Below, piece after piece: positions 19,260 to 21,317 of a stretch of 33,117 bases of DNA. The notes beneath the pieces were generated by a model, which made no database searches, was not told the DNA's origin, and was given only the letters and a program-made list of their open reading frames with translations. Location of the stretch: contig JAPLDA010000105.1 in the NCBI GenBank assembly GCA_026391945.1, forward strand, positions 1 to 33,117, given 5' to 3'. Source of the stretch: Bacteroidota bacterium (GTDB lineage Bacteria; Bacteroidota; Bacteroidia; AKYH767-A; 2013-40CM-41-45). Numbering within the stretch: the stretch's first letter is position 1; the number at the start of each line of letters is the position of its first letter. Position numbers and translations under genes: made by a program.

Positions 19260-19333
19260 GCCGATGTAGCTCAGATGGCCAGAGCTACTGATTTGTAATC
19301 AGTGGGTCGGGGGTTCGAATCCCTCCATCGGCT
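19260..19333 (+). tRNA. tRNA-Thr (anticodon TGT)
   Basis: Acceptor arms GCCGATG (19260-19266) and CATCGGC (19326-19332) pair perfectly. The anticodon stem ACTGA/TCAGT encloses TTTGTAA, giving anticodon TGT. The T arm has the GGTTCGAATCC pattern. CCA is not encoded. It reads ACA codons and is the first tRNA after the promoter. Confidence 0.95.
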
Positions 19334-19364
19334 CTCGTTCTTTGTAAAATAAGGTATTAGGGAA

Positions 19365-19447
19365 GGGGAGATACCAGAGTGGCCAAATGGGGCAGACTGT
19401 AAATCTGTTGTCTTTCGACTTCGGAGGTTCGAATCCTCCTCTCCCCA
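19365..19447 (+). tRNA. tRNA-Tyr (anticodon GTA)
   Basis: This is a long class II tRNA of 83 nt. Acceptor arms GGGGAGA and TCTCCCC pair perfectly. The anticodon loop CTGTAAA gives GTA. A long variable arm (TTGTCTTTCGACTTC region) is followed by the T arm GGAGG/CCTCC. The discriminator is A and CCA is not encoded. Confidence 0.95.
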
Positions 19448-19518
19448 CAATAATGTTGAAGTGTGCCACCGGTTAAAGAGTCGTCATTCATTGGTATTCT
19501 TCATGACGAAACGAAAAA

Positions 19519-19574
19519 GCGGAAGTAGCTCATTTGGTAGTCCGCCAGAGGCGGATCCAAAGCTATAGGTGCTC
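19519..19574 (+). pseudogene. Disrupted tRNA-Gly copy
   Basis: The first 22 bases (GCGGAAGTAGCTCATTTGGT and two more) are identical to the intact tRNA-Gly at 19587. Then the 5' anticodon arm is replaced by the palindrome TCCGCCAGAGGCGGA. The matching text CCAAAGCTATAGGTG resumes, with one added A, and then stops before the T arm. It has no anticodon stem, no T arm and no 3' acceptor strand, so it cannot be a tRNA. Confidence 0.85.
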
Positions 19575-19586
19575 AGAAAATAATAA

Positions 19587-19659
19587 GCGGAAGTAGCTCA
19601 TTTGGTAGAGCGATAGCCTTCCAAGCTATAGGTGGCGGGTTCGAGCCCCGTCTTCCGCT
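19587..19659 (+). tRNA. tRNA-Gly (anticodon TCC)
   Basis: Acceptor arms GCGGAAG and CTTCCGC are perfectly paired. The anticodon stem ATAGC/GCTAT encloses CTTCCAA, giving TCC. The T arm GCGGG/CCCGT is normal. The discriminator is T and CCA is not encoded. The broken copy lies 12 bases upstream. Confidence 0.95.
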
Positions 19660-19732
19660 CAAGGCTAAGTGAAACATTGTAAGTTAGCCGTCATGAATTC
19701 AGGAATCGACTGATAACGGATAATTTAATCAA

Positions 19733-19805
19733 GCCAATGTAGCTCAGTTGGTAGAGCACATCCATGGTAAGGATGAGGTCACCAGTTCGATCCTGGTCAT
19801 TGGCT
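19733..19805 (+). tRNA. tRNA-Thr (anticodon GGT)
   Basis: Acceptor arms GCCAATG and CATTGGC pair perfectly. The anticodon stem CATCC/GGATG encloses ATGGTAA, giving GGT, which reads ACC and ACT. With the TGT species upstream it covers most threonine codons. It lies 94 bases before tuf. Confidence 0.95.
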
Positions 19806-19899
19806 CTTTCGGAAAATTGAAATGAATGAAAAAATAGTTACGCTTCCATTAACTCAAATTATAAACTAATAATTCAACAACAATTAATCAACTAATAAA

Positions 19900-21087
19900 A
19901 TGGCAAAAGAAAAATTTGATCGTTCCAAACCACACGTAAATGTTGGAACTATAGGTCACGTTGACCACGGTAAAACTACTTTGACAGCAGCAATCACAAC
20001 CGTGCTTGCAGCACAGGGATTATCCGAAGTTCGTTCGTTCGATTCAATTGATAACGCTCCTGAAGAAAAAGAGCGCGGTATTACCATCAACACAGCACAC
20101 GTTGAGTATTCTACTGCTAAACGTCACTATGCACACGTTGACTGTCCTGGTCACGCCGACTATGTAAAGAACATGGTTACGGGTGCTGCCCAGATGGACG
20201 GCGCAATTCTCGTTGTTGCCGCTACCGATGGTCCGATGCCGCAGACACGTGAGCACATTCTTCTTGCCCGCCAGGTTGGTGTGCCTAAAGTGGTCGTATT
20301 CCTCAACAAAGTGGATATGGTTGATGATCCTGAATTGCTTGACCTCGTTGAAATGGAAGTTCGTGAGCTATTGAACTTTTATGAGTTCGATGGGAACAAC
20401 ATTCCTGTCATTCGTGGTTCTGCACTGGGTGGATTAAACAACGATCCGAAATGGGTTCCGAAAATTATGGAGCTGATGGATGCTGTAGACAGCTATATTC
20501 CTATTCCTCCACGCCTGGTTGAACTCCCGTTCCTGATGCCGGTGGAAGACGTGTTCTCCATCACCGGTCGCGGTACCGTTGCAACAGGTCGAATTGAGAG
20601 GGGTGTTATCAATTCCGGTGAAAACGTTGAAATTATCGGAATGCAGGAAAAAAAACTTACCTCTACTGTTACTGGAGTTGAAATGTTCCGCAAAATCCTT
20701 GACAGAGGTGAAGCCGGTGATAACGTTGGTCTTCTGTTAAGAGGTATTGAAAAGGATGATATCCGCAGGGGAATGGTGGTGGCTAAGCCAGGTTCCATTA
20801 CACCGCATACTGATTTCAAAGCTGAGATTTATGTTTTGAAAAAAGAAGAAGGTGGACGTCATACTCCTTTCCACAATAAATACCGTCCGCAGTTTTACCT
20901 CAGAACAACTGATGTAACCGGTGAAATTGTACTTCCTGAAGGAAGAGAAATGGTCATGCCTGGTGATAACGTAACCATCACCGTTGCATTGATTCAACCG
21001 GTTGCCATGGAAAAAGGACTTCGCTTCGCTATTCGTGAAGGCGGACGTACTGTGGGTGCCGGACAGGTAATTGAGATCATTAAGTAA
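19900..21087 (+). CDS. tuf: Elongation factor Tu
   Basis: EF-Tu is the GTPase that delivers aminoacyl-tRNAs to the ribosome. The 395-residue length is standard. The GTPase motifs are complete: G1 GHVDHGKT (residues 19-26), G2 [13 protein letters not shown]3 DCPGHADY, G4 NKVDMVDD and G5 GSAL. Domain II has [13 protein letters not shown], and domain III ends [11 protein letters not shown]. It is embedded between tRNA genes, a layout known from many bacteria and kept in this phylum (tRNA-tuf-tRNA-secE-nusG). It is probably co-transcribed with the tRNAs, since no terminator separates them. Confidence 0.99.
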
Positions 21088-21173: not shown

Positions 21174-21246
21174 ACGGGTGTAGCTCAATTGGCAGAGTAG
21201 CGGTCTCCAAAACCGTTGGTTGTAGGTTCGACTCCTGCCACCCGTG
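21174..21246 (+). tRNA. tRNA-Trp (anticodon CCA)
   Basis: Acceptor arms ACGGGTG and CACCCGT are paired. The anticodon loop CTCCAAA gives CCA. The discriminator G is the usual identity base for tryptophan. The position between tuf and secE is classical. Confidence 0.96.
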
Positions 21247-21317
21247 CAAAATCCGGTTGTTCATTGTCGAGAATGAAAAATATACATAATGAATGACTCT
21301 TACCAGATACTAATAAG

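Follow-up and report, generated by a model that had tools for sequence, protein, structure and literature searches.

SegB, a GIY-YIG homing endonuclease of phage T6 and the T-even phages, cuts tRNA genes with the motif RAWTSGAAC, and this cutting drives tandem amplification of the tRNA-bearing segment by recombination (PMC13096335). Judged from its letters, the motif appears to be the complement of the T-loop. The loci described below resemble the SegB system in that a GIY-YIG nuclease gene adjoins tRNA genes and a tRNA segment is amplified in tandem; however, SegB is a phage gene, the tRNA it amplifies is full-length, and the accessible part of the account does not report palindrome-scarred halves (PMC13096335). 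By profile, the closest solved relatives of the tRNA-linked nucleases are UPF0213/SLX1-type GIY-YIG proteins (1zg2 and 1ywl of UPF0213, and the SLX1 structure-specific endonucleases), for which no description as tRNA-linked tandem cassettes was found in the open-licence literature. Rickettsia palindromic elements, one case of which is cited in PMC3733652, are palindromes inserted in genes. They are longer and known in open reading frames, whereas the palindromes treated here are short hairpins in duplicated tRNA halves. REP/RAYT and IS200-IS605 hairpins (PMC3733652, PMC6006769) resemble the present palindromes, which are short, have conserved stems, occur in genes and spacers and in some cases reach high copy number (81 copies of one in the relative G005), but the present ones keep to certain tRNA positions that recur and to the neighbourhood of GIY-YIG genes. 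No account of palindrome-scarred tRNA copies was found in the open-licence literature, and the recurring class of such partial copies in Bacteroidota apparently has not been described so far.

The window (the whole stretch of 33,117 nucleotides that was analysed) contains a cluster of tRNA genes and tuf, all on the same strand, in keeping with the placement given in the preliminary description. Within it, a 68-bp unit (19519-19586) holding a broken tRNA-Gly copy, a palindrome and an A-rich spacer precedes the intact tRNA-Gly(TCC). The features are as follows.

19260-19334, forward strand: tRNA-Thr(TGT), with which the cluster begins (ARAGORN, Rfam)
19365-19448, forward strand: tRNA-Tyr(GTA) (ARAGORN, Rfam)
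19519-19540, forward strand: broken tRNA-Gly copy, bases 1-22, 100% identical to the intact gene
19541-19555, forward strand: palindrome TCCGCCAGAGGCGGA, 6-bp stem and 3-base loop, replacing tRNA bases 23-32
19556-19571, forward strand: resumption of the broken copy, tRNA-Gly bases 33-48 with one extra A, ending at the start of the T-arm
19572-19586, forward strand: A-rich spacer CTCAGAAAATAATAA, closing the 68-bp unit
19587-19660, forward strand: intact tRNA-Gly(TCC) (ARAGORN; Rfam, 68.8 bits)
19733-19806, forward strand: tRNA-Thr(GGT) (ARAGORN)
19900-21087, forward strand: tuf (EF-Tu), 395 amino acids (ORF and protein sequence)
21174-21247, forward strand: tRNA-Trp(CCA) (ARAGORN)

The preliminary description had seen a tRNA-Gly copy that equals the intact gene for 22 bases, exchanges the 5' side of its anticodon arm for a palindrome and then resumes. 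The identity, the palindromic swap and the resumption all stand, but the exchange reaches further than was thought: what is lost is approximately bases 23-32, which form the D-stem's 3' strand as well as the 5' strand of the anticodon stem. Because bases 23-32 are replaced, a hairpin-for-hairpin exchange of the anticodon arm was rejected for this copy, although it holds at 17 other loci. The broken copy stops 15 bases short of the intact gene, and A-rich ends resembling CTCAGAAAATAATAA occur in other 5'-type units too. Neither ARAGORN nor Rfam recognises a cloverleaf in the broken copy, the intact copy alone being called, and promoter and terminator scans around the broken copy gave only chance-level hits. 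The unit folds as one extended hairpin (-23.5 kcal/mol, z -4.1), and its 68 bp contain no ORF and hence none of the nuclease genes that a homing unit would carry; the genome has three small GIY-YIG genes, all of them away from this unit.

Palindromes of the TCCGCCAGAGGCGGA type (at most one mismatch) number one in the window against 0.05 expected, and the exact 15-mer is found at one site in the whole genome, which excludes a dispersed copy-paste source for it. The genome search for the palindrome that was proposed earlier finds more with the looser pattern TCCGCCNNNGGCGGA, which with at most one mismatch occurs at 25 sites against 3 for a control pattern. Four of the eight exact TCCGCCNNNGGCGGA sites are at tRNA loci, namely the window, a tRNA-Arg 3' half and two in duplicated tRNA-Asn leaders; with TCCGCCAGAGGCGGA at one exact site and TCCGCCNNNGGCGGA at eight, neither is the high-copy dispersed palindrome of a REP/RAYT system. 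Other tRNAs of the same genome are scarred as well. The tRNA-Arg 3' half has TCCGCCCCAGGCGGA in place of the anticodon stem-loop, and a second broken tRNA-Gly, of type GCC, is scarred by palindromes in two places, the anticodon arm and the D-arm. At tRNA-His, at least three tandem units with CTCCGATTGAAATCGGAG replacing the anticodon arm are followed by the intact gene and then a GIY-YIG gene, and at tRNA-Asn a scarred 5' piece is followed by a GIY-YIG gene and the intact tRNA gene, so that full units with a nuclease gene are present at both. The tRNA-His array (L033/L049) reaches a contig end, where it probably broke the assembly; the 3' end of its GIY-YIG gene runs into a tRNA D-arm and palindrome, so the C-terminus TVGLSTPI is translated tRNA-like sequence. 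Downstream of a tRNA-Gln (L031, ~1575-1840), its 3' end and terminator occur in two further copies in tandem, with a longer structured insert and no short palindrome.

The preliminary description had proposed to look for an intact tandem tRNA-Gly in relatives. The cluster was found in nine family members, and each of them has a single intact tRNA-Gly(TCC) at this place. The window unit is thus derived, a gain, and these relatives and the window together offer both the empty and the filled sites expected of a homing unit. One relative with a single intact tRNA-Gly in the same cluster, G002, carries the exact palindrome of the window, TCCGCCAGAGGCGGA, in each of two scarred 3' copies of tRNA-Thr(GGT), the second of which has a T-arm palindrome as well; its tRNA-Trp, the orthologue of the window's tRNA-Trp(CCA), has one palindrome-bearing 3' copy. 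The palindrome with 81 copies in G005 is TCCCGATAGCTATCGGGA, and among the copies inspected most lie off tRNAs, which makes some palindromes general repeats, while in G024 and G022 the majority of TCCCGATAGCTATCGGGA copies are inside scarred tRNAs. Upstream of tRNA-Gly(GCC) in G009 (L306/L309) is a tandem array with a shortened anticodon arm and without a clear palindrome.

A wide scan of 84,980 species genomes for a palindrome followed by a T-arm, whose design favours the TCCGCC palindrome, returned at least 117 stretches, mainly from Bacteroidota and including isolates. Eighteen matches fell in the variable arms of intact tRNA-Ser and tRNA-Leu, where the pattern is ordinary; with these set aside, at least 123 non-tRNA matches remain. 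A normal tRNA-Ser variable arm can be shaped like TCCGCCNNNGGCGGA (L060, L065, L070 and others), an ordinary feature that mimics the pattern. Among the matches listed, 66 of 123 have an intact tRNA, mostly initiator tRNA-Met, within 1.2 kb upstream, and a GIY-YIG ORF is nearby in 61 of 123. The commonest layout among them is an intact tRNA, a terminator, a GIY-YIG ORF of ~82 residues and a palindrome with a tRNA 3' half; tandem repeats in the same matches measure ~360 bp with the ORF and ~105-113 bp without it, and mirror-image 5' forms like the window unit are also among them. In an even sample of Bacteroidota the exact composite pattern is present in 6 of 395 genomes (control 0); this particular palindrome is therefore uncommon, and other palindromes serve elsewhere.

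The positions of these scars recur. At 17 loci, comprising 12 tRNA types and at least 11 different palindromes, the whole or nearly whole anticodon stem-loop is replaced, most commonly exactly canonical positions 27-43; in the initiator tRNA the palindrome stands in place of 38-47 and in tRNA-Asp of 38-49, and further palindromes replace D- or T-loop bases in other tRNAs. Nearly all 5' copies with a palindrome at the anticodon arm end at or within the T-arm (positions 47 to 63), and 68 of 86 3' copies reach the tRNA end. Tandem units either break off within the T-arm or begin within the D-arm or the anticodon arm. Of 58 truncated tRNA edges, 38 have a perfect hairpin, compared with 3.9% of random positions, and several of the remaining 20 have longer imperfect palindromes. 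The stem TCTCGTC/GACGAGA, with loops that vary, is common to the tRNA-Asp units of three genomes from two families. Since scarred partial copies recur in tandem at many tRNAs and with GIY-YIG genes, copying and palindrome look like one process. The duplication and palindrome swap proposed in the preliminary description thus survive, but a one-off event at one member of a pair of full-length tRNA copies does not.

A profile of the tRNA-linked nucleases gave more than 100 matches in 33 of 41 relatives, some of the genomes compared being drafts. Among 70 GIY-YIG loci of the relatives (one of which is counted twice, L204 = L239), 43 have a tRNA no more than 1 kb away, where ~1-2% would be expected by chance as estimated from tRNA density. 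All 43 are on the same strand as the neighbouring tRNA and 36 are downstream of it; the other 27 loci, several at contig ends, have no tRNA within 1 kb. Scarred tRNA-Met, Asp, Val, Arg, Leu, Ser, Asn, Ala, Lys and others adjoin GIY-YIG genes, with other palindromes. The linked proteins match Pfam PF01541 (E 2e-10 to 5e-18) and carry the catalytic Tyr, Arg, His and Glu of the family, with Y5, Y16, G18, R26, H30 and E63 invariant in 26 of them. On the protein tree the initiator-tRNA-linked nucleases, a set gathered partly by palindrome, fall into a single clade (1 change, where shuffling never gave fewer than 21) that spans Bacteroidota, Balneolota and Kryptoniota, and three initiator loci found by protein alone have the same stem. 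Nucleases linked to tRNA-Arg(CCT) and tRNA-Asn group more weakly. Target-specific nuclease lineages, another property of homing units, are thus represented by the initiator-tRNA clade.

From the observed units, their boundaries and recurrence, the GIY-YIG link, the nuclease lineages and the single-copy relatives, we consider the best explanation to be a homing-like duplication of segments at tRNA genes that is driven by the nuclease and whose extra half-tRNA bears the palindrome, with a probability of roughly 0.6, and the window unit would be its ORF-less derivative. The GIY-YIG gene next to the scarred copies probably drives the copying. How the DNA would be cut and repaired, and what the palindrome would do, we infer along the following lines. 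A full unit would consist of a tRNA half (either a 5' half with its upstream leader or a 3' half with its downstream terminator), a palindromic hairpin replacing one arm of that half, and the GIY-YIG gene. The nuclease would cut a particular tRNA gene, probably near the T-arm or anticodon region, and recombination repair via tRNA homology would make a tandem copy of the tRNA half, its flank and the nuclease gene. An intact tRNA would be retained, and the palindrome borne by the displaced half may ensure that this half neither serves as a target nor competes as a tRNA. Units that lack the gene might be leftovers, or mobile in trans. Against the nuclease model stand the gene-less window unit, with the genome's small GIY-YIG genes elsewhere, the GIY-YIG loci far from tRNAs and the use of TCCCGATAGCTATCGGGA as a general repeat in G005; moreover, the target keeps an intact tRNA after insertion, which is hard to square with a nuclease that spares its own host. 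A bolder reading, held tentatively and at less than even odds, is that these are a new class of tiny mobile element on tRNA genes, the window unit being the non-autonomous form. Here a hairpin-recognising GIY-YIG nuclease would put its own palindrome where the displaced half had a tRNA arm, with the intact tRNA restored.

An ordinary tandem partial tRNA duplication could also be followed by the landing of REP-like mobile palindromes in the spare copies, where they would settle because intact genes cannot tolerate insertion, with the GIY-YIG genes as independent passengers. tRNA genes are common insertion sites, units occur both with and without the nuclease gene, and the mostly non-tRNA TCCCGATAGCTATCGGGA copies inspected in G005 behave as such palindromes would. 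Neutral decay of this kind is nevertheless rather unlikely, as most partial copies have the palindrome at the truncated edge, the same stem-loop has been lost from many unrelated tRNAs, most palindrome copies in G024 are inside scarred tRNAs, and nuclease lineage tracks tRNA type.

The low folding energy of the window unit, the conserved stems with variable loops, the location of the copies on the tRNA strand and the replacement of whole arms by palindromes would all suit scarred copies kept as structured parts of tRNA transcripts (in processing, or as decoys or regulatory hairpins), the palindrome preserving a stem where the anticodon arm was. However, the further scarred units that were tested fold no better than shuffles, units are lineage-specific, variable in number and differently truncated, and beyond the hairpin no conserved RNA was found; we regard a retained RNA function as improbable. 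An assembly artefact of the tandem repeat might be suspected in a genome of 114 contigs whose tRNA-His array lies at a contig end. Yet the palindrome sets the broken copy apart from the intact gene, a difference that repeat collapse cannot create, and the like anatomy in isolates of Psychroflexus, Epilithonimonas, Subsaximicrobium and Nitritalea, as well as in near-complete assemblies and a ten-contig relative, makes an artefact very improbable indeed.

For annotation, the scarred copies are best treated as neither tRNAs nor random debris. If the nuclease-driven explanation is true, tRNA genes across a major phylum host very small nuclease-linked units, which would account for the clustering of small GIY-YIG genes at tRNAs and for the occurrence of partial tRNA repeats with palindromes, and the system would be a cellular counterpart of phage SegB, whose tRNA cutting drives gene amplification. 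Should the units prove to be mobile elements in their own right, an element of a few hundred bases could spread via essential genes of many phyla while its host survives.
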